The notes below the pieces were generated by a model. That model had not been told where the DNA came from, did not search any database, and was given only the letters and a program-made list of their open reading frames with translations. Position numbers and translations under genes: made by a program. From Pengzhenrongella sicca (GTDB lineage Bacteria; Actinomycetota; Actinomycetes; Actinomycetales; Cellulomonadaceae), in assembly GCF_017569225.1 (NCBI RefSeq), contig NZ_CP071868.1, positions 744,001-808,000 of the forward strand: 64,000 nucleotides of DNA. Reading direction: 5' to 3'. Of the stretch, positions 1-14,300 are shown one piece after another; within the stretch, counting starts at the first letter, position 1, and the number at the start of each line of letters is the position of its first letter.

Positions 1-211
1 CGGGCGGGTACCCGTCCTCCATGTAGTACGCCGTCAACGTTCGGGCGGCGGGCCGGTCGCAGTCACCAGACGCCGTGTGGCGCAGCAGGTACTTGTACCC
101 GGCGCCAGCCGTCAACCGGCGCATCGACATCACCGGACACCAACCCGGCCAGGTCGGCGGTGCGCGGTGGTCAGGCTTCGCGCGGCCGGTGGTCCGTTCG
201 GTTCGTGAAAG

Positions 212-259
212 GTCCTCATACCTAGCAGGAGTCCCGCGACCTACGGAAAACAGGGTGGT
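212..259 (+). repeat. Left arm of a 48-bp imperfect inverted repeat
   Basis: Positions 212-259 match the reverse complement of 1945-1992 at 40 of 48 positions by hand alignment, including the shared blocks GCAGGAGTCC and GAAAACAGGGTGGT. The two arms enclose about 1.7 kb carrying the PadR regulator and its partner. They could be ends of a small mobile cassette or duplicated promoter segments. Confidence 0.7.
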
Positions 260-301
260 CGCTCGAAGGTCACGCCATGTGCGGAACCTCGAGAGCCAGA
301 T

Positions 302-351
302 GAGTCCTGCCCCCTCAGCCTTGGATTTTCAGGCATGGAGGGGCAGGACTC
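302..351. terminator. 12-bp perfect hairpin, terminator-like
   Basis: GAGTCCTGCCCC at 302-313 is the exact reverse complement of 340-351, with a 26-nt loop containing GGATTTTC. There is no T tract after the stem, so a transcription-termination role is inferred only from the stem strength. Confidence 0.4.
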
Positions 352-738
352 CTCCGGCGACGGACCGAACATGAAGTGGGCGCCGACGTGACGCTTGCGT
401 CGGTGGTGCGGCACCACCAATGCCGGCATCGACCAGGGCGACGAACGCCGCGGTCATTGACTCTCACGTGGCGGTGTCAGTTCGGGCCGCCTCGACGACG
501 GCAAGGTCGGGTATCGGGCGCAGATCCCGGGTGAGCTGTCGCGGCAAACCTCGCGATCGCCGCGGTCAGCAGCCTCGGCGATACCGGCGGGAATCTCGCT
601 AGGTGGGACATGTCCACTGATGCTCGGACGGTCTGAGCCTCGCCTCAGATCGCGCGGGTAATCGGCCAGGCCGCAGGAGTCCATGGTGGAGCCCCAGAGA
701 GTAAATGGTCCGTAGGTCGGGCGTGTCGCTGCCGCGGG

Positions 739-762
739 CCGACCCTACCTAGGTAGAGTCGG
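739..762. promoter_or_regulatory. Palindromic operator at the padR start
   Basis: The sequence CCGAC-c-CTACCTAGGTAG-a-GTCGG is a 24-bp palindrome with a single mismatched pair, ending 4 bp before the ATG of the PadR-like gene. PadR proteins commonly repress their own operon through such inverted repeats. The position suggests a leaderless or nearly leaderless transcript with the operator over the core promoter. Confidence 0.6.
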
Positions 763-766
763 ACCT

Positions 767-1081
767 ATGAAGGTGACTCACTCGCTCGTCCTCGTGGCGC
801 TGGCACTCCTCGACATGGACCGGGAAGATGACAGTCGCGTGTGGGGCTATGCCCTGTCGAAGCGATCGGGCGTGCGCTCCGGTGTCCTCTACCCGCAGCT
901 CGACCGCATGATGGGCGAAGGCTGGCTGGAGGATCACTGGGAGGAGCACGCCGAGGGCAAGAAGCGCCCGCCCAGGCGCTACTACAAGCTCACAGATCAG
1001 GGACGCCGAGACCTCGGAGCAGTGGTTGCGCGAGCCGAGAGCCAGCCCAGGTTCCAGTCGATGAAGGAGGCCTTCGCGTGA
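767..1081 (+). CDS. PadR family transcriptional regulator
   Basis: This 104-aa protein is a PadR-type winged-helix regulator. The N-terminal helix (VTHSLVLVALALLDM), the recognition segment around GVRSGVLYPQLDRMMGEGWL and the wing RRYYKLTDQG are typical of the family, and the length fits subfamily 2, which has a short C-terminal dimerisation helix. No ribosome-binding site precedes the ATG and a perfect 12-bp palindrome lies 11 bp upstream, so leaderless expression with autorepression is likely. It overlaps the following membrane-protein gene by 4 bp (GTGA). PadR genes are frequently coupled to the membrane protein or transporter they control. The ligand is unknown. Confidence 0.88.
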   Translation: MKVTHSLVLVALALLDMDREDDSRVWGYALSKRSGVRSGVLYPQLDRMMGEGWLEDHWEEHAEGKKRPPRRYYKLTDQGRRDLGAVVARAESQPRFQSMKEAFA

Positions 1082-1656
1082 TCGGCGAGCTGATCAGAAC
1101 GCCCGGCGCGCTCGGAGGCTTCATGCTACTGGTGCTGATCTTCGGCTTCGCCCCCGGCATAGTTCTCGCGGTGATCGTGCGGCTGATCCCCGACCTGGAC
1201 CGCAGGTACGAGCTCCAAGCCGAGCTATACGAGGTGCCGCGCTGGGAGCGGCCGTTCTGGGTCGCCGAGCAGTTCGAGGTTTCGCTGAGGATCGGCATGG
1301 TGCCCCGTGTCGAGTGGGGGTGGGGTCGCTTCGTGTGGCACCGCTGCAAGCTGGAGTCGGGACTGGCCAGCACCCGCGAGTACCCCGACTCGTTCGAGGT
1401 CCCAGATGATGAAGTTAAGACAGAGATTCGCCCCGGTGACCACGTGAAGCTGATGTGGTCCGTCAGGCGGTTCCCCGGCGAGCGCATGTGGGTCACGGTC
1501 ACCGAGCGAACGGGTGACCGGCTGGTCGGCACCCTCAACAGCATGGCGATATACGTCTACATGCATCCGGACGAGGCAATCAAGTTCCACATCGACGACA
1601 TCATCGACTGCGCCCTGGATAACGACGAGCTCGCAATCGAGGCCGAAGCCGCGTAA
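1078..1656 (+). CDS. Small membrane-anchored protein with DUF2314-like domain
   Basis: A 192-aa protein starting at a GTG that overlaps the padR stop by 4 bp; longer in-frame starts would run through padR and are rejected. Residues about 10-37 form one hydrophobic transmembrane helix (GFMLLVLIFGFAPGIVLAVI). The C-terminal half contains GDHVKLMW...RMWVTVTE...GDRLVGTLN, which resembles the DUF2314/YegJ fold of small beta-rich proteins whose function is not established. Translational coupling to PadR suggests the two act together, perhaps as an envelope-stress or drug-response unit. That role is inference. Confidence 0.7.
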   Translation: MIGELIRTPGALGGFMLLVLIFGFAPGIVLAVIVRLIPDLDRRYELQAELYEVPRWERPFWVAEQFEVSLRIGMVPRVEWGWGRFVWHRCKLESGLASTREYPDSFEVPDDEVKTEIRPGDHVKLMWSVRRFPGERMWVTVTERTGDRLVGTLNSMAIYVYMHPDEAIKFHIDDIIDCALDNDELAIEAEAA

Positions 1657-2203
1657 CACGGCGTCGCAGATCCGAGGTCAGGCGCCGGTGCAGACTCTCA
1701 AAGCACGCGCATGAGGCGCGCGAGGGCGTGATATCTCGACCAGTTCCACGTAATCCCGCAGGTCGGCCGGCATCGTGTCCCAGCTCGCGGTCCCCTTGTT
1801 GGTCGCCCAATCATGGGTGCGGTTCTCGACGTCCCATCTCACGTGCCAGTCCCCCTGGAGATTGCCGCCTCGGCCAAGCGGCGGCGCCCAGCTGGCGGCT
1901 GAAAGTCCGGCGTCACGGCGCACGCGCCAGCCACATTTTCGTGAACCACCCTGTTTTCGGTCGTTCGCTGGACTCCTGCGTAGTAGGAGGACAGGAAATG
2001 ACTCGAATCGAGTCGCGACTGCGAAACGCGAATCGTCCGGCCCATCGCGACGACCGTTTTGGCTGATTCCCCTCCCTTCGCGTCGCTGGCGGGCGTTGTC
2101 CACAGATCTCGTCGGTGAACGACCCGGTGGGCGATGCCGTCGCTCACCGTGGACGTCGCACCAGCCTCGTCGGGGTTCCAACGGGGCCACGAGAGGAGTG
2201 GTC
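1657..2203. other. Intergenic region without a gene
   Basis: About 550 bp with no supportable coding frame. It contains the right arm of the long inverted repeat (1945-1992), a short palindrome ACTCGA-a-TCGAGT near 2000-2012, and a GTCCACAGATCTC block near 2100 that resembles the core of the 62-bp repeat found at 55054 and 57123. Confidence 0.5.
1945..1992 (-). repeat. Right arm of the 48-bp imperfect inverted repeat
   Basis: This is the reverse-complement partner of 212-259, with 40 of 48 identical positions by hand alignment. It lies in the intergenic region after the PadR-coupled gene, so the pair brackets that two-gene unit. Confidence 0.7.
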
Positions 2204-2626
2204 ATGACGATGACTTGGAATGCCCCGGCAGCGGTGCTCACCGGCTACGCGCGCGACTGGGACGGGGTGTGGATGCTGGTCTACGCCGCGGGGCACGCGG
2301 CGATGAGTTTGGCCGCAGTACCGGGCGCCGACGGCGATCTCGGGCTGACCTACGCGTCGTTGGACACCTCGTACGCGTTGACCGAGATCGAGCAGCACCT
2401 GGTCGACTTCACCAACACCGGAGTCACGGTCGACCTCGGCCCGGTAGATCTCGCACACCGCGACGCTGCCGTCCAGGTCATCGACGACCTGCTCGCCGCC
2501 GCAGCGACGTTGACGGCTCGATTGTCGGCCGAGCCAGACGTCGGCGCCGCTGACGTGCTGTGCGCGACCAGGGTCGCGATCTTGGTGGCGTCGGCGCGGG
2601 CGAAGGCAACCGGGGGTGCCTGGTGA
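2204..2626 (+). CDS. Hypothetical protein, first gene of an accessory operon
   Basis: A 140-aa acidic, alanine-rich, mostly helical protein beginning at an ATG preceded by GAGAGGAG. I recognise no family. It has no signal peptide or transmembrane helix; a C-terminal helical stretch around DAAVQVIDDLLAAAATL may form a coil. Its stop overlaps the next GTG start by 4 bp (GTGA), so the two proteins are probably made together. Position within the integrase/IS-containing accessory region suggests a mobile-element cargo or plasmid-type function, which is inference. Confidence 0.6.
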   Translation: MTMTWNAPAAVLTGYARDWDGVWMLVYAAGHAAMSLAAVPGADGDLGLTYASLDTSYALTEIEQHLVDFTNTGVTVDLGPVDLAHRDAAVQVIDDLLAAAATLTARLSAEPDVGAADVLCATRVAILVASARAKATGGAW

Positions 2627-4065
2627 GCGGCCCGGCGGCGGCGCCGGCAACGTACGGGGACCTGATTTTGAAGGCGTCGCTCAGCATCCAGGCCGGCGTC
2701 AGCTCGATGCAGAATCTGGGCTTCGAGGACCGCGGCCACGCCCAGGCCGTGATCGGCGACTTCCAGCAGCTACTGCGCGCACTGCTGGAGCACACGTGGG
2801 CGCTGCTCGACCTGCGCCGGGTCGACGGCATCGCGTCGACGCCGACTCCGGACCCACGCGAACGCTCCGCGGTGCGGTTGACCGACGTCGTGCACGACTA
2901 CCTCGAGCCGAGGGCGCCGTCGATCCCGAACCCATCGACGTTGAGCTCGTCACAGTGGCTGGTCGCGGCCAGAAGCGTACGCGCGGCAGGGGATCTGATG
3001 GCGACCCACGCCGACGTCGACGGCCTGGCCCGGACCCCAGACCTCGACGCCGTGCTGCGACATCCCGCAACCCGGCAGGCCGGACTGGCCCAAGTCGGCG
3101 ACATGATCGCGACCCTGGTCTCGGGGGAGGACTACCTCGCGTTGCGTGCCGCGCAGGCCGGGCTCCCGTGGGGGGAGGTCCGCACCCACCTGCCAGGGAT
3201 GAGCGAGATCCGCGCCCACGCCCGCGACGTCGCAGGCACCGGGTCGCTGCCGGCTTGGGCGCTCCTGGACGACCTTACGGTCGCCCGCCCTCCGGTCCGT
3301 ACCGGTGATCCGGCCGGGCAGATCCGCGACCGGATGCTGCGCCTGCGGTTGCGGGCGTGGCAGGACGCCGCGTCGCCGCACCCGTCGACCGGGACGTTGG
3401 AGACTTTCGCCGTCGTCGGCATCGCCGTGCACGCCCACGCACTCGCGTTCCACGGTGTGCTCCCGGGCAAAACGATTTCGGCCGACCGGCTCACGCGAAC
3501 TTTGGTTGAGGTAACGGCTCGAGGTCGGGCGTGGCAAGAGGTTTACCGCGGTCTGCGCGGACTGAAGTCCGCCGAACCGGCCGACCCAGCCGTGACGGAG
3601 GGCCTCGCCGCGGTCGACGGGGTGCTGCGCGCTGTCGCGCCGCTGCGTGGCAGACAGCCCGACCTGGCGGTAGGGGAGCGGCGTGATGTCGGTCAGGCGA
3701 TCGTTGGGGCGACGGCGATGATGGCGGACATCGCCCGTTGGAATCGCACCGCGTTCACACGTATGGCCCGAGCCGAGCAGGTCTACGTTCGCGCGGACGC
3801 GCTTCCGGGCGCGGCAGTGCGGAACTCCGACGTCTTGGCAGGGGCCAAACTCACGGGCCGGTGCGTCATCGCCGCGCCCGAAGCCGTCGACACCGTTGCG
3901 AGCCTGTACGGCCGGGCCGCTCCGCCGAGGAACTCCGCGCTTATCGGCGCCTCAGGACTGACGCTGCGGGCCGAACCTCTGCGGGCCGAACCCCTGCGGG
4001 CCGAACCCCTGTGGGCTCCGGCGACGTCCGCGCATCCTGCCCGCGACCCGATAGAAAGGACCTGA
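2623..4065 (+). CDS. Hypothetical 480-aa helical protein with C-terminal LRAEP repeats
   Basis: Starts at a GTG overlapping the preceding stop; an earlier in-frame start would overlap the upstream gene heavily. The product is a soluble, predominantly helical protein of 480 aa with no recognised domain, signal peptide or membrane segment. Near the C-terminus three 15-bp units (3964-3978, 3979-3993, 3994-4008) encode LRAEP three times in tandem, an evident recent micro-duplication. Its composition resembles hypothetical proteins of actinobacterial conjugative elements, but I cannot assign a function. It forms a compact operon with the genes on both sides. Confidence 0.6.
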   Translation: MSGPAAAPATYGDLILKASLSIQAGVSSMQNLGFEDRGHAQAVIGDFQQLLRALLEHTWALLDLRRVDGIASTPTPDPRERSAVRLTDVVHDYLEPRAPSIPNPSTLSSSQWLVAARSVRAAGDLMATHADVDGLARTPDLDAVLRHPATRQAGLAQVGDMIATLVSGEDYLALRAAQAGLPWGEVRTHLPGMSEIRAHARDVAGTGSLPAWALLDDLTVARPPVRTGDPAGQIRDRMLRLRLRAWQDAASPHPSTGTLETFAVVGIAVHAHALAFHGVLPGKTISADRLTRTLVEVTARGRAWQEVYRGLRGLKSAEPADPAVTEGLAAVDGVLRAVAPLRGRQPDLAVGERRDVGQAIVGATAMMADIARWNRTAFTRMARAEQVYVRADALPGAAVRNSDVLAGAKLTGRCVIAAPEAVDTVASLYGRAAPPRNSALIGASGLTLRAEPLRAEPLRAEPLWAPATSAHPARDPIERT

Positions 4066-4077
4066 CGCCATGAATGC

Positions 4078-4365
4078 GTGCGTGTTCAGTCGCGAGATCA
4101 ACTACCCGGCTGGTCGGCCCAATCCATCTGGGGGTTCGACGCCCTGCTCAAGTGCTACTTGCCAGCTTGTGGGCGTGACGACGACTACGACGACTCGCCG
4201 ACCATCCAGATCAGCTCGTACCACCTGATCCTGCCCCTGAACGCCCTCGCCCGCGTCGTTGCCGCCCACCTGGGCATCACCGCCGACGACGCCCACCTCG
4301 TCCTCATCGGAAACAGCCCGGCGCACCGGATACGAATGCCCCGACGACCGGCGCGGAGGACCTGA
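4078..4365 (+). CDS. Small hypothetical protein, possibly frameshifted at its 5' end
   Basis: The open frame from GTG 4078 encodes 95 aa including an acidic stretch (GRDDDYDDSPT) and a plausible helical core. However, the best start signal is an ATG at 4070 with AAAGGACC upstream, in another frame, reading MNACVFSREINYPAGRPNPSG. Adding one G in the GGGGG run near 4130 would join that N-terminus to GFDALLKCYLPA in this frame. Either the gene is a recent frameshift pseudogene, a sequencing error is present, or the internal GTG is used. It overlaps the next start by 1 bp (TGATG). Function unknown. Confidence 0.45.
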   Translation: MRVQSRDQLPGWSAQSIWGFDALLKCYLPACGRDDDYDDSPTIQISSYHLILPLNALARVVAAHLGITADDAHLVLIGNSPAHRIRMPRRPARRT

Positions 4366-4598
4366 TGGGCGACTCCGCTTCATCGGTCGTCGAGCGGATC
4401 GAGGCAGCACTTCGGGCCTGGGCTCGTGGCTTCTACCCGTCTGGGGCAGCCGTAGAGCTGCTCATCGCCCACGGCGCCTGGCTCAATCGCGCCGACTTCC
4501 GCCGAAGGACCATCTGGATCAGCGACGAAGGGCCGGTGTGCATCGCGGTCGACTGGGTCGCAGCCCGCGACCTGACCGGCCGCGCTAAGCGGCACTGA
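4365..4598 (+). CDS. Small hypothetical protein, last gene of the accessory operon
   Basis: A 77-aa protein whose ATG overlaps the preceding stop by one base, with GGAGG just upstream. It has an amphipathic N-terminal helix (SSVVERIEAALRAWARG) and a compact C-terminal half (RRTIWISDEGPVCIAVDWVAA). No family is recognised. Coupled spacing through the four genes from 2204 to 4598 supports one polycistronic unit. Confidence 0.5.
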   Translation: MGDSASSVVERIEAALRAWARGFYPSGAAVELLIAHGAWLNRADFRRRTIWISDEGPVCIAVDWVAARDLTGRAKRH

Positions 4599-4622
4599 AC
4601 GCGCGATGCTCTCTCGGTGCCC

Positions 4623-4763
4623 GTGAGCCTCGCCGGCCAACTCTGCGAGACCAGCCTCGGCGACCTCCTCACCGGCTTGGACCGAGCGAACATCGACTTG
4701 GTGCTACAACCACTAGGTTGCAGGAACGCCGCACCGCTGCGCTCGACACCGGGACCTTCCTAG
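4623..4763 (+). CDS. Possible 46-aa small ORF
   Basis: From GTG 4623 a short frame encodes VSLAGQLCETSLGDLLTGLD and continues to a TAG at 4761. The first thirty residues look protein-like (regular helix, codon bias toward G/C in third positions), while the tail does not. It may be a truncated remnant of a longer gene. No ribosome-binding site is obvious. The remainder of 4764-4959 shows nothing I can call. Confidence 0.2.
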   Translation: MSLAGQLCETSLGDLLTGLDRANIDLVLQPLGCRNAAPLRSTPGPS

Positions 4764-4959
4764 TCGCGAGAGTCAGCTTCGCGGTCTCGACGTCGCGCCG
4801 GGAACCCACGGGCCACACCACCGGCGCAGGCACTCCTTCCCTCGACCTGACGACATCATCTCGTCCGTACCAGATCGCGACTCGACGGACGCGGCGAGTG
4901 CTGACGAGGACTGACGACGCCGGCACCCGCACTGTGATGTGAGTGTGCGCGGCGACTGA

Positions 4960-5577
4960 CTAGTGCTCAACGTCGCCCGGCAAGACCTCACCCGTGCTAG
5001 ATACCTGCAAGAACGTCCTCGACGGCCAGAAAAACGCGGTCAATCGCCCTCCGGTCGAGCCGCAACCTGTGTCGATATGTGCTGACTTCGGCCCGATCTC
5101 TGGAGTCAGACCGGTGAAGATGTGGGCGGATACTGCGAATAGGTTCGAATCTGGTCGCGGTTCATGGGAGGCAATCCAACCGTCGCCTACAAATTCTTCC
5201 GCCATAGAACGCAGGAACTCTACGTGCGCGCGGGGCACGGCCTGGCGCAAACCGGCCGCTACGTCGGCGCCGACGTTTCCGCCGAGATACGATCTGATCG
5301 TCGGGGCCCCGCCCATTCTCAGTAGACCCGCAATGTCGCTTGTCTCGAGCGCGTGAAGAAGGGCGACCTCGTGGTTTCCGCGCAGAAAGTCGACCGACGG
5401 GCGAGAAGTTAACGTGAGAAGCAATTCAACCACTTCGCGGGAGGCGGGCCCCTTGTTTACAAAATCCCCGAGGAAGATGATCCGCTCCGCACCGACTTTG
5501 TCCAGCTCATCGATGAGCCCTTCGAGAGCCTCGACATTGCCATGGATATCGCCAACAAAAACCGTTTCGAGGCTCAC
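4960..5577 (-). CDS. Calcineurin-like metallophosphatase (ApaH/PrpE type), third gene of a putative defence cassette
   Basis: A 205-aa protein beginning at a GTG that overlaps the stop of the nucleotidyltransferase gene by 4 bp. The dinuclear-metal motifs are complete: GDIHG at residues 9-13, GDFVNKGP at 37-44, GNHE at 67-70, and the C-terminal HIDTGC...GGRLTAF characteristic of the PPP/ApaH/PrpE branch. Family members hydrolyse phosphoproteins or dinucleoside polyphosphates. Coupled to a nucleotidyltransferase and a DUF4062-TPR protein in lower-G+C DNA beside an integrase, it may reverse or complete a nucleotide-based modification; that role is inference. Confidence 0.82.
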   Translation of the reverse strand: MSLETVFVGDIHGNVEALEGLIDELDKVGAERIIFLGDFVNKGPASREVVELLLTLTSRPSVDFLRGNHEVALLHALETSDIAGLLRMGGAPTIRSYLGGNVGADVAAGLRQAVPRAHVEFLRSMAEEFVGDGWIASHEPRPDSNLFAVSAHIFTGLTPEIGPKSAHIDTGCGSTGGRLTAFFWPSRTFLQVSSTGEVLPGDVEH

Positions 5578-6401
5578 AATAGAATCTTCTCCACTTCGAG
5601 GTAGCCTAGAGACGCGCCAGACCCGCCAAGAGCCATCATGGCCATCGAAATTAGGTCCCCCTTTCGTTCCCACTCATTGACGATCAGAGCTTCGAGCGAG
5701 CCGTGGCCGTTCGCCAGAAGCGGACCAATGATCCCCTGCAATTGTTGCATGCAAATTCTCAGATCCGTGATGCTTGGAGGCGACTCCTGGCGCGAGGCTA
5801 GAAGTCGTACGAGTTCGGGCTTCCCATTCCTCCGTGCAATTTCGCGAACTGAGAAACACGGCTCACCATCGGCAATGGCACGGGCGTAGAGGCAGGAACG
5901 AAGCAGGTATCGAGCCTCGCGGAGAAGCCCGCTTAGATACTTCGGCAAGTCTCTATCGAGTGCTCCGAGGACAATGCTCATCCGACGACAGCGCTCAAAA
6001 AGCCGTTCCGTGTCGACATCGCCCATGTTCGCGAGGGCGGCCCCGACCTCGCCGTGCGGGTCCCAGATGACCTTCGAATCCCTGGCCAGATGTGCTCCAA
6101 AGAGAGTCCCAACCCCGGTCCGCAACTGATCTGGGCTGTAGAAACTTAGGCTCAACTCGCCGGAGTGCACGCTCTTCCGAGGCGTGTCGGTCAATGCCAG
6201 GAGATCCCAATCGGATCCTGCGACAGAGTCACCCCGAGCTCGGCTGCCGTAGAGTAGAACCCCTCGATCCGTTTCCTTCAGTGAATTCAAGAGTCCTTCG
6301 AGAACATCTTTCGGCACATCGAGACGCGCAATTGCGAGCTTGAGCTCTTCGCCCCGCGAAGTATCGCTCGCCGGCGCGGGTATGCCCGCGTATTTTGTCA
6401 C
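5574..6401 (-). CDS. Nucleotidyltransferase-domain protein, second gene of a putative defence cassette
   Basis: A 275-aa protein started by a GTG overlapping the upstream stop by 4 bp (GTGA). Residues 52-66 carry the pol-beta-superfamily minimal nucleotidyltransferase signature GSRARGD followed by D64-x-D66, which bind metal and NTP. The remaining about 200 residues are helical and without a family I recognise; they could be a substrate or partner-binding module similar in layout to C-terminal domains of MNT or aminoglycoside adenylyltransferases. Such enzymes NMPylate proteins, RNA or small molecules. Local DNA is noticeably A+T-richer than the chromosome. Translation is coupled to both neighbours, implying a fixed stoichiometry. 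Confidence 0.82.
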   Translation of the reverse strand: MTKYAGIPAPASDTSRGEELKLAIARLDVPKDVLEGLLNSLKETDRGVLLYGSRARGDSVAGSDWDLLALTDTPRKSVHSGELSLSFYSPDQLRTGVGTLFGAHLARDSKVIWDPHGEVGAALANMGDVDTERLFERCRRMSIVLGALDRDLPKYLSGLLREARYLLRSCLYARAIADGEPCFSVREIARRNGKPELVRLLASRQESPPSITDLRICMQQLQGIIGPLLANGHGSLEALIVNEWERKGDLISMAMMALGGSGASLGYLEVEKILL

Positions 6402-7849
6402 GGTTTCGGAGCTTCGCGCAAAGCCGCTATTGCGGACTCAAGAAGTCCCTGTGCTTGATCTGAACCGCTAGTATTTCTCATCTCTCCGTTGAGTCGTACG
6501 GACTCCTGGGCGCACCTAATTGCCTCAAGATAGTTCTTTTGTGCGAGTAGAGCACGCGCTAGAACGAAGTTTGAGATGGCACGACCCAACCCGTTCGCGA
6601 ATTGTTCGTTCAGAGCGAGAGCAACCCGCGCAGCACCCTCGGCATCCGGAAAATTCTTCGCGTACAGGTGCTGCTGCGCAATAAGCACGAACGAATTTGC
6701 ATGAACTGCTGTTGGTGGCAAGCTCTTCAAGCGGGCGGCAGCGGATCGGGCGAAACTCTCAGCCGTCTCCCGCGTTCCGATCGCACGCCAGATGCGTGCG
6801 AGATTGATCTCTGACTGAGCGATTAGCGCTGGGTCGTCGATTTCTATTCGGAGCTCATGTGCCGCTTCGAACGATTTGCGAGCGCTATCCAGGTCGTGCT
6901 GTGCGTGTTGGGTTAAGCCGAGATCATCGTAAACCCTTGCTCTAACTGTACGAGAGTGTACATCTATTCTGTTCAACAGTCCCAGAGCGTGCTGGAGTTG
7001 CGCAGCAGCTTTCACATACTGTTTTTCCCGCCGCCATAGCGTGGCGTCCGCGGCGTACGCTTCGGCAGCCGCCGTGGAGCGCATGTCGCCAGGACCATTT
7101 ACGAAGTGGGATATTGCCTCGCTGACGGCAACGTGTGCTTCAGTAAAACGTCCACTCCTTCCGAGGAAGCGCGCGTACGCAAGTTTCTCTTCCGGCCCAC
7201 CAATTTGCGCTGCTTGCTTTAACTTCGATAGTCCCTGTTCGGCGTAGCCGAGTTCAACTAGTTTTTCGCCGTCTGTTCGCATGCGCTCCGCACCGAGAAT
7301 ATCTATTCCCGAGCTCGGAATCAATGAAACACGCCTGGCCTCTTTGAATTCGAGTTTTGACCAATCCTCTAGCCGCTGGCTGAGTTTGATTCCTAGGTCG
7401 TCTTCGTTTGCGCATGTCTCGAAGTACAATGCGTTCTTGTTGATAATCTGCTGCCGGAATGTCTCGACGGGCGCGGTGACTATGCTCCCCGTATCCATAA
7501 ATGCGACCCAGACATCTTTCATCGGCCTGGCGTCCCGCGCCAGATCAAGTAGTGCCGTGAATATTTCCTCTTCTGTGCCTGAGCTGTACCCCCACGGGCT
7601 GCCAGGTTCGCTTCCCCACGACTTTGCGAAGACAGCGATCAGAAAGTGGCATTCGTGTATCAAGTCGTTAATCGCGGCCTGCGGCCGTCGCGCAGTTCCG
7701 CGGACGCTTTCGTAGCCGACGACTTCATACGTTCCGCTCCGTACGCCACGAGCGTTGAACTGGGCGACACAATCGCGAATGGCTTTGCGTTCGTGCGTAG
7801 CATCACTCGGTGACGCGAGGAAGATGCGGAACGGCAGGGAAGTGTTCAT
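6398..7849 (-). CDS. DUF4062/TIR-like protein with TPR array, first gene of a putative defence cassette
   Basis: A 483-aa protein starting with ATG. Residues about 5-165 match the DUF4062-type TIR-like fold: FRIFLASPSDATHERKAIRD at the start, a conserved E in YEVVGYESVRG, the ECHFLIAVFAKSWGSE strand and the SSGTEEEIFTALLD helix. From about 200 to the C-terminus there are repeated 34-residue helix pairs (for example EAYAADATLWRREKQYVKAA and LGLTQHAQHDLDSARKSFEA) typical of TPRs, probably for sensing or partner binding. DUF4062 domains occur in STAND-type and other immune proteins. Coupled downstream genes are a nucleotidyltransferase and a metallophosphatase. Codon usage and G+C differ from the neighbouring chromosome, pointing to horizontal acquisition. 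Confidence 0.8.
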   Translation of the reverse strand: MNTSLPFRIFLASPSDATHERKAIRDCVAQFNARGVRSGTYEVVGYESVRGTARRPQAAINDLIHECHFLIAVFAKSWGSEPGSPWGYSSGTEEEIFTALLDLARDARPMKDVWVAFMDTGSIVTAPVETFRQQIINKNALYFETCANEDDLGIKLSQRLEDWSKLEFKEARRVSLIPSSGIDILGAERMRTDGEKLVELGYAEQGLSKLKQAAQIGGPEEKLAYARFLGRSGRFTEAHVAVSEAISHFVNGPGDMRSTAAAEAYAADATLWRREKQYVKAAAQLQHALGLLNRIDVHSRTVRARVYDDLGLTQHAQHDLDSARKSFEAAHELRIEIDDPALIAQSEINLARIWRAIGTRETAESFARSAAARLKSLPPTAVHANSFVLIAQQHLYAKNFPDAEGAARVALALNEQFANGLGRAISNFVLARALLAQKNYLEAIRCAQESVRLNGEMRNTSGSDQAQGLLESAIAALREAPKP

Positions 7850-8135
7850 TATCGCAGACTAGTCGCACGGCGCTCATGCGTTCGCGCATCCTGATGCTCA
7901 GGGGCGGATGAACGCTGAGCATGTTCGCGCGGCAGGCCCCGCCGGTGCGAGAACTGTAGAATTTGTCGCAGTCCTCGCGTGTGAGTAGTGGTCGTTTCGT
8001 GGTCGGTTTGTGTGCGGTTGTCCTCTTTGAAGTGACCTCGGCCTTGGGTCGGGATGGTGATCTGTTCTTGCGTCTTCCGGAAGGGCCTGGGGCACGAGGT
8101 GGTGACCGATCGAAAGTCCTCCGTAACGCAAACGG
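7850..8135. promoter_or_regulatory. Leader/promoter region of the three-gene cassette
   Basis: This 286-bp gap separates the cassette from the integrase, both on the minus strand. It contains an 8-bp inverted repeat (ATGCTCAG 7894-7901 and 7915-7922) upstream of the cassette start, and a GATAAT hexamer that overlaps the ATG itself. A possible promoter is suggested by GACAAATTCTACAG on the minus strand near 7955-7970. None of these is conclusive, and no gene is evident. Confidence 0.35.
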
Positions 8136-9299
8136 TCACGGTTGCGGTTTCGTCGCGGGGTCTCTCGCGATGGACTGTGTCTGTCCTTGGTTGAGGGTCC
8201 GGTCGAACGCGGCGAGGTTCTTTTCGTCGGCGTCGGGGAGTGCGTGCAGGTACTTCTGCGTGGTCATGATCTGGGCGTGGCCCATGCGGTCCATGACTCC
8301 TTTGAGGTCGGCACCGCCGGCGAGGAGCCAGGATGCGTGTGCGTGGCGGAGGTCGTGGACGCGGACACCGAAGTCGATCTGCGCGGCTTGGACGGCGGGC
8401 AGCCAGACCCGCGTCCGGAACGTGTTCCGCGACAGTGGGTTGCCGCCTGCGATTTCGCTGGATGGGAAGAGTAGGTCGTCGGGTCCGAGGCCGAGGCGGG
8501 CGATCCGCGCTGACAGGACGTCGAGTAGTCCCTGGCTGATTCCGATGACGCGGGGCTTGTTGCTCTTGGGGTAGGGCTTGACGATCATGCGCTCGCCGGT
8601 GGGGGAGTGCTTCTTGGAGATTTCGACGATGGTCTCCTTGACGTTGATCGTTCGGCGCAGGAACTCGAGGTGTCGGGGCCGGAGCGCGATCAGCTCGCCC
8701 CACCGCAGCCCGGTCTCGATGTCCGTGACTACGAGGTCCTTGAAGCGGTCGGGTATCGCGGCGAGGATCCGCCGGTACTCATCTGGGGTGATCGTTCGGG
8801 TCTGCCGGGGGACCACCTTCGGCAGCTCGGTCTCGTCGCAGGGGTTGAAGGCGATGATCCGGTCGCGCACTGCCCGCTTGAAGATCGAGTGCAGCATCAC
8901 GTGGTACTTCATCGTGCTGCGCGGGGAGAGTCCGTCCGCGATCGCCTTGGTCACCCACTCTTGAATCATGGACGGTGAGATCTTCGCCATCGGTCGGTCG
9001 CCGAACGCGGGGAGGAAGTGCTTGTCGAGGTTCGACCGGTAGGAGACGTGGGTGGTGGCCTCGAGGTGCCGGCTGGGGAACCAGACGTTCTCCACGAAGT
9101 CGCGGAAGGTGATCTTGCCGAACTGCGCGTCGAGCCAGGTGCCGTCGCCGACCTTGACCTCCTCGCGGTTCGCGGCGCGCAGCGCGGCCCTGGTGGAGGG
9201 GAAGGTGCCGGCGGAGCGGGTGCGTCCGTCCGGGTCGCGGTAATATCCACGGAAGGTTTCCGCGCCGCTTGCTGCGACGTGCTTGCGGACCCAGGCCAT
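8136..9299 (-). CDS. Tyrosine recombinase / site-specific integrase
   Basis: A 387-aa integrase. The ATG at 9299 is chosen because TGGAGGTGG lies 3-11 bases before it; longer in-frame starts lack this signal. Residues about 1-60 form an Arm-binding domain, 65-150 a SAM-like core-binding domain, and 165-365 the catalytic domain with R199, H315-x-x-R318, H341 and nucleophile Y350 all visible. It resembles integrases of actinobacterial integrative elements that use tRNA genes, and a tRNA-Met-derived segment lies about 185 bp upstream. It probably mobilised the adjacent cassette region. No excisionase gene is obvious. Confidence 0.9.
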   Translation of the reverse strand: MAWVRKHVAASGAETFRGYYRDPDGRTRSAGTFPSTRAALRAANREEVKVGDGTWLDAQFGKITFRDFVENVWFPSRHLEATTHVSYRSNLDKHFLPAFGDRPMAKISPSMIQEWVTKAIADGLSPRSTMKYHVMLHSIFKRAVRDRIIAFNPCDETELPKVVPRQTRTITPDEYRRILAAIPDRFKDLVVTDIETGLRWGELIALRPRHLEFLRRTINVKETIVEISKKHSPTGERMIVKPYPKSNKPRVIGISQGLLDVLSARIARLGLGPDDLLFPSSEIAGGNPLSRNTFRTRVWLPAVQAAQIDFGVRVHDLRHAHASWLLAGGADLKGVMDRMGHAQIMTTQKYLHALPDADEKNLAAFDRTLNQGQTQSIARDPATKPQP

Positions 9300-9482
9300 G
9301 GGCCACCTCCAGAATGTGCATTTAATTCCCGTGACCGCACGGTGACCGCAAACCTTGCCATACGGCCATGGATAAGCCTGGATAACACCGGACCAGCGAT
9401 AGTGACTCTGACCTGCGACGACGTTGCCAGAGTACACCGATCCACGCTCAGACGGAAGGATCTCAAAAGTGCCTTCGGTCCC

Positions 9483-9510
9483 GCTCATAACCCAGAGGTC
9501 GAGGGTTCAA
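9483..9510 (+). other. tRNA-Met-like attachment core (att)
   Basis: The 28-bp GCTCATAACCCAGAGGTCGA followed by GGGTTCAA matches the anticodon loop (CAT), 3' anticodon stem, variable loop and T-arm of a tRNA-Met. Neither the 5' half nor the acceptor stem is present on either side, so this is not a functional tRNA. Tyrosine integrases typically recombine in the anticodon loop and carry this portion of the target tRNA, and the integrase gene lies directly beside it. I read it as an attachment core. Confidence 0.72.
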
Positions 9511-9582
9511 TAGTTCGCGTTCGCCGCTCGGGACAGAGTCTTTTCTGTTTTTGAGAGGACGCCTCCAACGTGGGCCTAAAAA

Positions 9583-11017
9583 GGCTCATCGCATTCGAGG
9601 GTGTAGTTGGGGTCGGAAGCCACCGGTTTCCAGGAGACTGCGCGCGATGTAGTGGGCGAGGTTCCGGAACCCCAGGGCTGAGCCGCGCAGGTGTTCGAGT
9701 CGGCCGTTGATCGCCTCCGTCGGCCCGTTGCTCGTGCCGGGTCTATCGAAGTAGGCCAGCACGTCGGCGGCTCGCTTCTTCAAGGTCCGTCCGAGGGTGA
9801 TGACCTCGCGCAGCGCGGCGGGGACGCCGGAGCTGACCGAGGCGATCAGCTGTTCCATCAGGGTTCGCCCGTGCTGGCGGTCGGGGTGGCGGTAGGCAGC
9901 GACCATCTGCTGGTAGACGCCCCAGGTGGCTTCGACCTCGACGTGCTCGTCGGCCGCGAACAGGGCCTCGAGCCGGGCCCGCTGCCGGTCGGTGAGCAGG
10001 TCGACGCCGGTGTGCAGGGTGCGCCGCGCCCGGTAGAGCGGATCGTCCTTGTGCCCGCGGTGACCGTGCAGGTCTTGCTGGACCCGGCGCCGGCACCGGT
10101 CCATCGCGTCTGCACCCAGACGCGCGACGTGGAAGGGATCCATGACTGCGACGGCCTCGGGTAGCTCTTCGGCGGCGGCGGTCTTGAAGCCGGTGAACCC
10201 GTCCATCGCGACGACCTCCACCCGCGCCCGCCAGTCCTCGGGGCGCTCGGCGAGCCAGGTCTTGAAGACCTGTTTGGAGCGGCCCGGCACCATGTCGAGC
10301 AACCGCGCGGTCCCGGTGCCGTCCCTGATCGGGGTGAGGTCGATGATGACGGTGACGAACTTGTCGCCGCGGCGGGTGTGGCGCCACACGTGCTCATCGA
10401 CGCCGATCACGGCCACGCCGTTGAACCGGGTCGGGTCCTCGATGAGCCGGCGTTGTCCTTCGGCCAGGACCGCGTTGTTGGCCGTGTTCCACGACACCGC
10501 CAACGCCTCCGCGATCCGCGCGACCGTCAGATGCTGGACCACCAGTGCTTCTAACGCCCACCGGACCGCGCGCCGGGACAGCTTCGCCCGGGGCTCGGCC
10601 GCAGCGTCGGCGTCTTGGCGCCACACGTGTGCGCAGCCTGGGCACCGGTACCGGCGCAGCCGGACTTCCAGCACGGTGGGGCGCCACCCGAACGGCTCGT
10701 GCGCGAGCCGGCGCACGAGCGAGTCCCGCGCAACGCCTTCGGCCCCGCACCGGCGACACCACTGGTCCTGCGCGGCGACCCGGCAGGACAGCACGGCGCG
10801 GTCGGGCTCGAGGCGTTGGCCGACGACGACGAGACCGAGCTCGTCGACGCGAGTGAACGTGGTCAAGTCAGGGTCACCGAAGGTAGTTTCGAACACGTCG
10901 AGGTCTTCCGGCTGGGCTGTGTGAGAACTCCCATCATCGGAAGGCCTCGACCTCTACCCAGACACCGACGCGCCGCCCGCGATCAGACCGCCGCTACACC
11001 CTCGATTGCGAAGAGCC
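9583..11017. mobile_element. ISL3-family insertion sequence, complete
   Basis: A 1435-bp element bounded by 24-bp imperfect terminal inverted repeats (9583-9606, beginning GGCTCATCGCATTCGAGGGT, and the reverse complement at 10994-11017, with 22 of 24 positions matching). Directly outside, the 8-bp sequence CCTAAAAA occurs at both 9575-9582 and 11018-11025, the target duplication length expected of ISL3 elements. A full-length transposase is present, so the element appears intact and its insertion recent. Confidence 0.93.
9586..10896 (-). CDS. ISL3 family transposase
   Basis: A 436-aa transposase filling the insertion sequence; its last codons lie inside the left terminal repeat. The N-terminus has a zinc-ribbon (WCRRC ... 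CPGC, residues about 47-90) and a helix-turn-helix region, followed by a DDE catalytic domain with GVDEHVW, AMDGF, DPFHV and the C-terminal TEAINGR block. No frameshift or internal stop is seen, so it should be active. It catalyses cut-and-paste movement of the element. Confidence 0.95.
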   Translation of the reverse strand: MFETTFGDPDLTTFTRVDELGLVVVGQRLEPDRAVLSCRVAAQDQWCRRCGAEGVARDSLVRRLAHEPFGWRPTVLEVRLRRYRCPGCAHVWRQDADAAAEPRAKLSRRAVRWALEALVVQHLTVARIAEALAVSWNTANNAVLAEGQRRLIEDPTRFNGVAVIGVDEHVWRHTRRGDKFVTVIIDLTPIRDGTGTARLLDMVPGRSKQVFKTWLAERPEDWRARVEVVAMDGFTGFKTAAAEELPEAVAVMDPFHVARLGADAMDRCRRRVQQDLHGHRGHKDDPLYRARRTLHTGVDLLTDRQRARLEALFAADEHVEVEATWGVYQQMVAAYRHPDRQHGRTLMEQLIASVSSGVPAALREVITLGRTLKKRAADVLAYFDRPGTSNGPTEAINGRLEHLRGSALGFRNLAHYIARSLLETGGFRPQLHPRMR

Positions 11018-11025
11018 CCTAAAAA

Positions 11026-11315
11026 ATTGTATGCACGACTTTTTGGTGCACGTTCACGTGCCCGTGTTGGGCCGCCGAGAGTGCCGCATCCAGTCGGGAT
11101 CCCCCGCGCCGCTTGAGCACGCGGGCGTCGCGCAGTGCGGCGAGCTTCATGCGTACGGCTCGCCGGTGGAGGTCAGGTGCTGAGGGTGTCTGTCGGGAGT
11201 CATCCAAACCGCCCGGGCTGAGGCTCCCCGCTCAGTCGTGTGAAATCCCAGGTGACAGATGTGACCCGTATCACATAGGTTCGAATTGTCCCATTCACCC
11301 CCCGGGGGAGTCGCC
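11026..11315. other. Intergenic region upstream of the giant gene pair
   Basis: This 290-bp region starts at the insertion-sequence target duplication. An AT-rich block (AAAAAATTGTATGCACGACT) at its left edge was presumably split from 9574 by the insertion. It holds a short inverted repeat GCACG-ttca-CGTGC near 11048. A 62-codon minus-strand frame (11019-11207) has no convincing start or family. A promoter for the following gene is expected here but I cannot define it. Confidence 0.4.
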
Positions 11316-14300
11316 ATGTCGCTGTGGGACCAGTTGCCCGGGTCGGCCGGCAGCGGCGGCGCCCTGGACACGATCGAGTCCGCACTCACGTCCGTCCCGG
11401 GTGTGCAGCAGGCCGATCTCACCGACGACGACGGCACCTGGCGCATCTACACCGACAGCGCCAGGGTTCCTCAGCTCGGGCTGCCCGGTGCCGGCACCCC
11501 GATCGAGTTCCGCGACCCGAACGTCACACTGACCGTCGGGCGGCACGTCGGCGACGACGGCTGGCGGATCGACCTGACCGCGCCGGTGGTCGCGATCGCG
11601 CTGCCGTTCCTCACCCCGGCCCGCTATGACGTTGCCAACGCGCTGCTGGTGCCGGACACCGCGCAGCGCGGCGTGTTCCTCGTGGTCGGCGGGCTGACCG
11701 TGCGCCTGCAGCAGCTTGAGGGTCAGGACGTGAAGTTCTCGCTGGTGAGCGCGTCGACGTCGGGCAACCCGACGGACAAGATCTACGACCTGATCCGGAT
11801 GGAGCCGGGCTACGCGATCGTCGGGCCCGGCAACGCGGTCGGTTTCGGCTTCCGAGGAGCCGTGCTCGACCTGTCCGACGCGGCCGGTCCGCCGAACCTG
11901 CCGGCGGGTGCGCGCACCATGCCGAACAGCTGGCAGGGGTTCTTCCTGCCGGAGATCCGGCTGTTCGTGCAGCCGAACGGGCTGGACGGGCTGCACGTCA
12001 CCGCCGCCGCGCGGAATCTGTACCTCGGGGTCGGCGCGTCGGCCGGGGTCACCGGCATCTTCGAGGCCGAGGTCGTCAACGGGGCGTCGCTGTCCGTCGA
12101 GGCCTCCTTCCTCACCCCGACCGGTGCCGTGGTCCCCGCCGCCGACGGCTCGGCGACGGTCCCGGCGAGCTCGACGCTGATCGTGAGCACCCACGGCGGG
12201 TCGGGCTCGAACACCATCACGATCACCCCGGACAACGCGACCGCGGTGATCGGCGAGCGCGCGGCGATCACCACCGACGCCGACGGCACCTCGATCGCCA
12301 TCGCCGTGCACGACGCCGCAGCCGGCCTGGACAAGTCCGTCGCCTTACGCACCGCGCTCGCGGCCGGCGCCGTGTCCGGGTCGGGATCCGCGAAGGTCGT
12401 CGGCGTCACTCCCAACGACCCGTCGGCGCAGTGGAAGCTGCAGCTCGGCGCGTTGGACCCGGCGGTCGTGAAGCTGAGCGCGGAGCCGCCGGCCGGGACG
12501 ACGATCGCGTGGACGTCGCCGACGCTCACCTTCGTCGGCCCGACGAACGGCCCGACGGTCACCGTCGACCTGGCCGCCCTGACCGACGCCGCACCCGTCG
12601 ACGGCGACCTGTCGGTGACGTTCTCCGGTGCCGCCGCCCAGGACAGCGACTGCTTCTTCCTCGTCGACCACCCGACGACCGGTGAGTTCAACCCCGCCGC
12701 GGGCGCAGCCCCGTCCGCCCGTGAGCGGGCCTGGGCGCTCGGTCCGGACTCGACGCGCGACGCGAAGTCGCCGTCGCGATCGGGCCTGGCCGCGGCCGGG
12801 ACCTACCTGGCGGCGGCGCGGGCGCTCGCCGCTCGGATCCCGCACGGCACCCACATCGAGGTCGATGGGTACGCGTCGTACGAGGCGACCACCTCCGACG
12901 GGTGGAACAAGGACCTGTCCGCCCGCCGTCAGAGCGCCGCGATCACGATCCTCACCGAGGCGGGCTTCACCGACGTCCAGCCGGGGACCGCGACCGGCGA
13001 CGACACCGCCCACGCGCACACCTGGCCCGCGACGGCGACGGCCAACCCGGCCGGCGCCGCCCCGGCGGAGGGCGACGGGTTCTGGTGGCTGGCCCGCGCC
13101 AGGGTGTCGGCCTTCGCGCCGATCACCGTGGGCGGGCGCCTGCACGCCGAGGTCTCGCACTGGTCGAACGACACGCCCCCGGCCGAGAACACCCCCGCCC
13201 GGCAGCCACCGCCGTCCTGCTTCCGGCGCATCGGCGTGCGCGTGGAGCTGCTGCGTTCGTCGTTCATCCGGGCGGAGGTCTGGGGCGAGCTGGACGTCTC
13301 GTCCGCGGCAGGGCAGGTCGAGCCCGGGCTCGACCTGCCGCCCGGCGGCAACCCGGGCGACGGGATCGTCGACTTCCTGGCGCGGATGCGGATCACCGAG
13401 GATCGCCAGGCCTGGTCGGTCGAGGCCGAGGTGAAGGCGCACGCGGGTGACAAGGACGGCCTCTACCAACGCAAACGCGGCGACGGCATCCCCAACACGG
13501 TGATCGACGGCGTCGGCGCGATGGCGGTCATCGCGCCGCTGACGGCCGCGGTTAGCTCGCTGTCGCCGGCCGCCGGCGGAGCGGTCGCGCTCGTCGGCGC
13601 CGGGCTCGGCGCATCCGGCACGGTCCTGACGACCCAGGCGATCACCCTGTACGGGGTCGACGTGCTGGTCAGCCACGGGATCGTGGGCGCGTCCGGCGAG
13701 GTCGGCGACCCGTCCGCAGGTGACCGGGTCAGCGTGCTGTTCGACGTCGAGACCCAGTTCATGGTCGACGTCAAGATCATCCGCACCACGAAGCCGGTCA
13801 AGGCCCGCTACAAGGCGATCGGGATGGCCGCGACCTGGGGCGCGGCCGGCGCGCCCTTCACCCCGACGTTCGTCTTCGACCCCGACAAGGGCTACACGAT
13901 CGACGCCCCCGACGGGTCGGTCGCGGCTGTGTCCCCGCTGGACGAGATCCTGCGGGTGTTCGGTTTCAAGGTCTCCCGCGACAACCCGATGTTCATCGAG
14001 ATCCAGTTCGGGATCGGCCTGGAGATCGGCATCATCACGATCGACACCGCGACGGTCCGGGCCACCTTCCAAGGTGGTGGCGGCGCCCCGGACATCTCGA
14101 TCTCCCGGCTGCGCGCCACGATCGACGTGCCCGGCACGCTGCACGGCACCGGCGAGGTGTCGATCTCGGAGAACCTGATCGGCGGCGCGTTCGACATCAC
14201 AGTGACCCCGGTCGCCGTCCGGATCGCCGCCTCGCTGTTCATCGCGAAGGGTCCGGACGGCAACGTCGGCGTGCTGTTCGGCGGGCTGGTCGAGCTGCCG

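Follow-up and report, generated by a model that had tools for sequence, protein, structure and literature searches.

Three adjoining minus-strand genes of Pengzhenrongella sicca, which encode in this order a DUF4062-TPR protein, a nucleotidyltransferase (NTase) and a PPP-type metallophosphoesterase (MPE), form a real, conserved and patchily spread unit whose three proteins co-evolve. They occupy positions 4960–7849 of the window, that is, of the whole stretch of 64,000 nucleotides analysed here (contig NZ_CP071868.1, positions 744,001 to 808,000, forward strand). The trio is tentatively explained, with a probability somewhat short of one half, as a mobile defence module in which the DUF4062-TPR protein would be the effector, the NTase would restrain it through a nucleotide on its own tail, and the MPE would reset or release it. 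The parts are of known kinds; what appears to be new is their combination, the missing third acid of the NTase and the encoded phosphoesterase.

Distribution and linkage of the three genes

When 84,980 species genomes were scanned with an alignment of four NTase sequences, 50 stretches were matched and 23 of them were relatives; 22 of these 23 records are named as actinobacterial taxa, and the remaining one only as 'bacterium'. Together with the window, locus L005 (genome G161), the Rhodococcus plasmids L007, L008 and L088, and L006 (genome G158), 29 loci were tallied. All three genes are intact in 21 of them, the window included, with open frames of nearly whole length. Since there are 28 further loci with the pair or the trio, the arrangement is not a chance one. 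The loci not tallied as intact are L008, L018, L019, L007, L033, L006 and, at contig ends, L026 and L035. In L008, L018 and L019, three kinds of transposase gene accompany a DUF4062-TPR gene that is interrupted or cut, and the NTase and MPE genes are open: IS1415 lies between its two parts in L008, a rve-type transposase separates them in L019, and in L018 the C-terminal part adjoins a DDE_Tnp_1_4 transposase and the N-terminal part would fall beyond the contig end. In L007, the DUF4062 gene was not found in the 605 bases preceding the end of the linear replicon, and in L006 the third gene is a different one, encoding another effector.

Among the 24 loci with a DUF4062-TPR gene, 22 have it in convergent orientation to NTase-MPE; in the remaining two, the window and L022 (Promicromonospora), it lies upstream and reads in the same direction. 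That it is kept despite this change of orientation argues for a functional link. The NTase and MPE genes overlap by 4 nt in 27 of the 28 loci with a readable junction, the exception being L006 with 1 nt; this count comprises the MPE of 25 of the 26 loci of the main set, all with 4 nt (the printed sequence of L029 is ATGA), plus the window, L088 (from its annotation) and L006. Among 394 genomes of the class, the NTase was found in three, and the trio-type MPE in the same three (305, 270 and 127 bits), one of which is G158, where the third gene is not DUF4062. None of the other 26 among the 29 MPE-matched genomes exceeds 55.6 bits, and their matches cover the profile only in part. Moreover, the pairwise distances of 20 loci are correlated between DUF4062-TPR and NTase (0.976), DUF4062-TPR and MPE (0.930), and NTase and MPE (0.926), and the values are still 0.91–0.95 among 14 loci of one clade; none of 2000 permutations reached the observed correlations. 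Among 235 neighbouring open reading frames (ORFs) of 26 loci, obtained with a crude gene caller and compared by BLAST at E 1e-8, the most widely shared family occurs in only three loci, so a fourth component is apparently not needed.

Viral contigs scanned with the NTase gave 19 pattern matches and no relatives, and among phage records the NTase had no match. A phylum-wide profile search (396 genomes, 18 matched) gave, besides the genome of origin, only partial matches of at most about 40 bits, which are not counted as relatives. Ten plasmid records match the NTase: three are the tallied Rhodococcus plasmids, and the other seven show 27–41% identity over 29–72% of the query. In four of these seven, the NTase is partnered by a WYL protein and adjoined by no annotated MPE, and one is the record of L086, described below. 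The MPE of G158 is matched in 127 plasmid records, the best at about 30–36% identity; among these, the presence of the NTase was examined in the Rhodococcus ones.

The nucleotidyltransferase

The NTase of the trio is a relative of HalB, the nucleotidyltransferase of Hailong. The NCBIfam HalB model NF051895 gives 87.9 bits on the window protein (E 6.8e-25), and 80.5 and 94.8 bits on two relatives from other trios, against a cut-off of 190 that is not reached. A profile of 24 trio-type NTases retrieves the solved HalB structure 9dbh (E 5.4e-14). In addition, when an AlphaFold model of the window protein (mean predicted local distance difference test, pLDDT, 86) was compared by Foldseek, ranks 1–13 were all HalB, with a target TM of 0.71–0.76. 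The active-site residues S53, D64 and D66 are invariant in the 24 trio-type sequences, as is the G of the GS-D-x-D motif that had been read from the window alone.

The third acid is a different matter. At the position where HalB has a Glu that fits it, the 24 trio NTases have S (12), N (8) or H (4), and never D or E. Glu is present there in the 9dbh alignment and in the HalB of L086, and S or N in the NTases of L006 and of the WYL-linked group. From the family motif, the HalB Glu at this position is probably the catalytic third acid; with S, N or H in its place, HalB-like long-chain polymerisation is therefore doubtful, and a short or single-nucleotide adduct would be more likely than a long chain. 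D108 was considered as a substitute for the missing acid and rejected, because HalB has an acid at that place too.

The control is L086, a Sulfitobacter pontiacus plasmid that carries a true Hailong pair at L086:3874-5672, with HalA at 266.6 bits (cut-off 250) and HalB at 185, just under 190. This pair stands in a record that bears no annotation in the collection.

The tail of the protein provides a second shared feature. In an alignment of 14 diverse NTases (seven trio-type, L006, five WYL-linked and one HalA-linked), 14 columns are invariant, and the last of them is a tyrosine near the C-terminus. Its distance from the end is 0–1 residues in the proteins linked to HalA or WYL, the true HalA-linked HalB having it as the very last residue, and exactly 8 residues in the trio-type and L006 proteins. 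Each of the 14 has a Tyr among its last nine residues; overall, Tyr accounts for 3.1% of the residues. In the model, residues 261–275 have a pLDDT under 50. HalB is said to prime on its own C-terminal tyrosine. According to PMC13275509, poly-dA adducts of HalB block HalA. By analogy with HalB and from its position, Tyr267 of the window protein is the likely site of nucleotide attachment.

HalB-like NTases also occur in another setting. On the plasmids L009, L010, L011, L012 and L087 they adjoin WYL-domain proteins; those of L010 and L011 are transcribed away from CBASS and multiubiquitin/ThiF genes, and that of L012 is convergent with RloB/ATPase genes. Three of the four alphaproteobacterial WYL-linked NTases exceed the NCBIfam HalB cut-off, and no neighbour is annotated as HalA (as judged by annotation only, no HalA test having been made). 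Such proteins may represent a distinct kind of defence-island regulator that responds to nucleotides, and they run the risk of being misnamed as Hailong.

The DUF4062-TPR protein and the metallophosphoesterase

The preprint PMC13174449 (May 2026) reports that DUF4062 proteins are TIR-like NADases which share a conserved catalytic Glu and act in abortive infection, and that the family, known there from bacterial defence, extends as far as TEP1, a human vault protein. In Swarozyc, DUF4062 is the killing domain and a phage portal triggers it via a helix-turn-helix (HTH)/winged domain; the catalytic Glu of KpSwz, the Swarozyc of K. pneumoniae, is E97. In the trio protein, S90, G91, E94, E95, R21, R55, Q57, N61 and W78 are kept in all 20 full-length sequences. 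In a five-stranded alternating model of mean pLDDT 87.5, E94/E95 stands where the helix behind the third strand begins. An NADase activity of the protein is predicted by family membership.

The C-terminal part is TPR by Pfam, by PDB profile and in the model; with the full-length profile, the best 60 of 117 PDB matches are TPR-type proteins. The highest 19-residue mean hydropathy is 1.06, and there is no membrane-like stretch. Given the C-terminal TPR solenoid, portal binding in the manner of KpSwz is not expected. The original prediction took the first gene for an infection sensor. Because that preprint describes DUF4062 as a TIR-like NADase killing domain, this gene is more likely the effector and the TPRs its regulatory part; a role as sensor only was dropped in light of the same source, and a sensing role of the TPRs may still hold. 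A second, stronger DUF4062 domain (68.6 bits) was seen elsewhere in the same genome, in a 296-aa ORF (L106:943-1833, genome 1119768-1120016).

In G158, the effector appears to be exchanged. At L006:7563-10161, an operon contains a HalB-like NTase and an MPE, 26% and 33% identical to those of the window. The gene after them, which overlaps by 4 nt, encodes a nuclease of the DpnII/MboI type (Pfam 8.5e-42, PADLOC Aga_Helical-REase 3.1e-24). The same NTase-MPE with another third gene suggests, from this one locus, a control core made up of NTase and MPE, with the third gene as effector.

As for the MPE, D10, H12, D38, H69, H138 and H152, invariant in 24 of 24 sequences, are taken as the PPP metal ligands, and N68 is conserved in 22 of 24. 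By profile, its nearest PDB entry is 4j6o (titled metallophosphoesterase, E 7.4e-18), followed by RLPH2 and diadenosine tetraphosphatase, and then by PP2A and ApaH chains. The window MPE is below the cut-off of all 11 NCBIfam families that it matches and belongs to a group of its own tied to the NTase. The earlier assignment as a PPP-type phosphatase thus stands, and its pairing with the NTase as writer and eraser remains plausible.

Proposed mechanism and alternative explanations

The proposed mechanism of the mobile defence module is as follows. The DUF4062-TPR protein would be the effector, whose TIR-like domain, when released, is predicted to hydrolyse NAD+, and whose TPR solenoid would carry a regulatory and possibly sensing surface. 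In the uninfected cell, the HalB-like NTase would restrain it, most likely via a nucleotide on its own C-terminal tyrosine, in a protein-primed manner comparable to the poly-dA adduct of HalB. The MPE, whose translation would be coupled to that of the NTase through their 4-nt overlap, may hydrolyse the nucleotide product or the phosphodiester link, and in this way set the nucleotide level or release the effector. Infection would upset the balance, the NADase would be freed and the cell would stop, that is to say, abortive infection would result. In Clover, CloB makes an inhibitory nucleotide, and active-site mutants of CloB are toxic (PMC12265719). Restraint by the NTase is favoured because the NTase product restrains the effector in both Hailong and Clover, and the inhibitory direction of control is presumed from these two systems; the coupling of the MPE, its substrate and the role against phage are likewise suppositions.

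Several findings weigh against this explanation. The score of the window NTase is far below the HalB cut-off, the third acid is missing, and the alignment of the tail tyrosine is favoured by the tendency of MAFFT to align chain ends. For the TIR-like fold, a PDB profile search with the DUF4062 part alone gave a best E of 0.12, to an unrelated entry and with no TIR. The hhalign comparison with a ThsB-type protein and three island proteins, possible TIR comparators of which only the ThsB-type protein was identified and the island ones were candidates for the TIR_2 domain, gave no match, and no TIR domain is named among the best 50 Foldseek matches of the whole chain. The distance correlations still include shared host ancestry. 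L033 is a remnant in which NTase and MPE are both truncated and the DUF4062 gene was not found. That the three insertions all fall within one half of the locus is not significant (0.125 by chance); they agree with a costly effector, but their number is too small for an argument on toxicity, and L033 points the other way.

A wider form of the explanation, which is rather doubtful, is that NTase-MPE would be a modular and reversible guard core, with a nucleotide mark on its own tail tyrosine and a coupled phosphoesterase as eraser, set over varied killers (the DUF4062 NADase in most loci, the DpnII/MboI-type nuclease in G158).

It is unlikely, though worth weighing, that the switch is covalent. 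The target of nucleotidylation by the NTase would then be the DUF4062-TPR protein, just as HepT is that of MntA, the MPE would take the mark off again, and no free or tail-linked signal would arise. The loss of the third acid suits a single transfer better than polymerisation, a dedicated hydrolase is sensible for a reversible mark, and the MntA model (NF047752, 19.9 bits) and the MNT structure 7ae9 (Foldseek E 9.9e-4) are recognisable further relatives. However, the MntA score falls far short of the 60 bits required, the NTase is much more closely related to HalB, and the tail Tyr shared with HalB suggests self-priming.

An activating signal in the logic of CBASS has a still smaller probability. 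Infection would turn the NTase on, its product would activate the DUF4062-TPR protein, and the MPE would clear stray signal. This scheme would suit a write/erase pair whose effector is separate, and the effector is indeed a separate convergent gene in most loci that have it; yet the relatives or look-alikes of known direction, HalB and CloB, inhibit, and no entry titled CD-NTase is among the structure matches listed.

Comparison with named systems

In Hailong, the NTase of the trio finds its fold and family, its GS/DxD motif and its invariant tail tyrosine. The differences are that HalA, a pentapeptide/channel protein, is replaced by the DUF4062-TPR protein, that a phosphoesterase is added, and that the third-position acid of HalB is S, N or H. 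With Swarozyc, as described in PMC13174449, the trio shares an N-terminal DUF4062, in which the trio proteins have an invariant Glu pair as candidate for the catalytic Glu; the HTH/winged domain with which KpSwz binds the portal contrasts with the TPR solenoid and the linked NTase and MPE. The main text of that preprint contains no word beginning nucleotidyltransferase, phosphatase, phosphoesterase or TPR.

Clover (CloA-CloB) likewise combines an effector with a partner NTase that makes an inhibitory nucleotide. However, it is a two-gene system with a dGTPase effector, and CloB is given the full [D/E]h[D/E]..h[D/E]h motif (PMC12265719), whereas the partners of the trio NTase are the DUF4062-TPR protein and the MPE, with no dNTPase (HD-domain) partner; no HD family is among the best 25 of the 93 Pfam families of the neighbouring proteins. 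Type VII toxin-antitoxin MntA/HepT is similar in its small Pol-beta-type NTase with GS-x10-DxD; it differs in that the trio NTase is far from the MntA cut-off, and the HEPN family is unmatched in the trio by Pfam and NCBIfam. Finally, the trio MPE keeps all six putative metal-binding residues of the PPP-family phosphatases ApaH/PrpE and Pnkp, and differs from them by lying below the NCBIfam cut-offs, in its own NTase-tied group.

The original prediction knew of no named defence system with precisely this trio, and as a trio it is unmatched in PADLOC 2023 and NCBIfam 2026; PADLOC 2023 matches the NTase and DUF4062 only weakly and in part (best 3e-5) and does not match the MPE. The combination is unlisted there, but its parts are less novel than had been stated, the NTase being a HalB relative and DUF4062 a described NADase. 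No description of the trio was found in the literature by title and abstract, in a search that included neither the Hailong paper nor Figure S1 of PMC13174449. The discussion of this preprint, citing that figure, reports some DUF4062 proteins in operons with diverse enzymes, so an earlier depiction of the trio is possible.

The locus in the window, its island and its neighbours

The coordinates are collected in Table 1. Both overlaps of the three genes are present as predicted; the listed MPE ORF from 5673 begins too early, the GTG at 5577 being the start that overlaps the NTase stop. Pfam finds DUF4062 (28.3 bits, cut-off 24.7) with TPR_12 in the first protein and Metallophos (40.8 bits, cut-off 21.5) in the third; NTP_transf_2 reaches 20.3 bits on the NTase, slightly below its cut-off of 21. 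In 500-base segments, the G+C is 0.546–0.600 across 5001–7750, against 0.63–0.73 in the left flank (1–5000) and 0.63–0.72 in the right flank (8001–11000), except 0.600 at 9251–9750. The predicted dip below both flanks is thus real, but not distinctive by itself, because another part of the same island (719–725 kb of the genome) is nearly as low, with 0.578 and 0.601 per 3 kb against 0.572 for the bin of the trio.

Table 1. Features of the trio and its surroundings (positions in the window unless a locus handle precedes them)
Feature	Position	Strand	Remarks
DUF4062-TPR protein	6398..7849	-	483 aa, ATG start; predicted TIR-like NADase effector and TPR solenoid, 15 helices (~seven hairpins) in the model
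DUF4062 domain, residues 8-99	7553..7828	-	Pfam PF13271, 28.3 bits, cut-off 24.7
Glu94-Glu95, candidate NADase catalytic Glu	7565..7570	-	invariant in 20/20 full-length and 23/23 domain sequences; start of model helix 92-104
HalB-related NTase	5574..6401	-	275 aa, GTG start
NTase active-site motif GS-x10-D-x-D, residues 52-66	6204..6248	-	G, S and both D invariant 24/24
NTase tail Tyr267, predicted disordered C-terminus	5601..5603	-	8 residues from the end; invariant in 24/24 trio-type and 14/14 diverse HalB-like sequences (7 of the 14 trio-type)
PPP/ApaH/Pnkp-like MPE	4960..5577	-	205 aa, GTG start at 5577; D10, H12, D38, H69, H138, H152 invariant 24/24
GTGA overlap, DUF4062-TPR stop / NTase start	6398..6401	-	
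GTGA overlap, NTase stop / MPE start	5574..5577	-	
Tyrosine integrase of the island	8136..9302	-	start codon uncertain; Pfam 5.7e-23
att copy, 19-bp core GCTCATAACCCAGAGGTCG, of tRNA-Met at genome 692.5 kb	9483..9501	+	right end of the ~61-kb island
Thoeris-type genes near the trio	L005:6212-7575; L024:2089-3452; L028:6182-7039		

The adjoining tyrosine integrase and att core that had been noticed beside the trio are borne out by Pfam and by the genome. The 15-base core CATAACCCAGAGGTC occurs twice in the 4.4-Mb genome with at most one mismatch allowed (a control pattern had no occurrence): one copy is at window position 9486, the other at 692515 in a tRNA-Met that is intact. Therefore, a ~61-kb tRNA-Met island, which extends from 692.5 to 753.5 kb of the genome and ends with window 1–9501, has the trio and the integrase at its right end. 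Of 44 ORFs retained by a filter on length and composition, one of which lies just outside the island, 29 were scanned. Pfam matches include a TrwC relaxase, a TraG/D-type coupling protein, Tad-type secretion genes (TadE, T2SSE/T2SSF) and DnaB-N, as well as a C5-methylase, Vsr, a Schlafen-type helicase and a TIR_2 domain; PADLOC matches (best 25 of 67 families) include MkoA, MkoC and DruM2/type II methylase. That the window copy of the trio resides in a mobile element which also bears defence-gene matches is thus supported. In the other four genomes of the genus, the NTase had no match at E 1e-20.

Further defence genes lie near some of the other loci. According to PADLOC counts and neighbour clusters, Thoeris-type genes are found within a few kb of the trio, ThsA macro in three loci and ThsB in two, and the Hma-type gene HmaC is close by in L021. 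The proximity to known defence genes holds for the window island and for a few related loci. In a Pfam scan of 104 of the 210 listed neighbouring ORFs, the phage-integrase family is found in 8 of the 104 proteins, and integrases and HTH regulators are frequent neighbours. A role other than against phage, as an addiction or stress-response module of mobile elements or as a regulator of another process, would suit these neighbours, the conjugative-type island of the window copy and the three loci on plasmids, but is the least probable of the alternatives, since defence-type genes lie near several loci and both the HalB-like NTase and DUF4062 are relatives of defence components.

Some other features of the window were observed. 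At 9326–9359, 34 bp are 94% identical to DNA directly downstream of the tRNA-Met at 692.6 kb, and are perhaps part of att or integrase-arm sites. A 15-bp unit is present in three tandem copies at 3964–4016, near the end of the ORF 2560–4065, whose protein had no Pfam match. Just outside the island, at 11286–18014, there is a 2242-aa ORF without assigned function.

Significance

If the mobile defence module is real, the inhibitory nucleotide guarding of Hailong, Clover and Panoptes would extend to effectors that deplete NAD+, with the addition of an encoded eraser, and it could be asked directly which factor sets the balance and which change infection induces. If the wider form with exchangeable killers is true, a protein-primed nucleotide guard with a built-in eraser would join Hailong-type control to TIR-like NAD+ depletion. 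For some DUF4062 proteins, the trio offers a plausible regulator.

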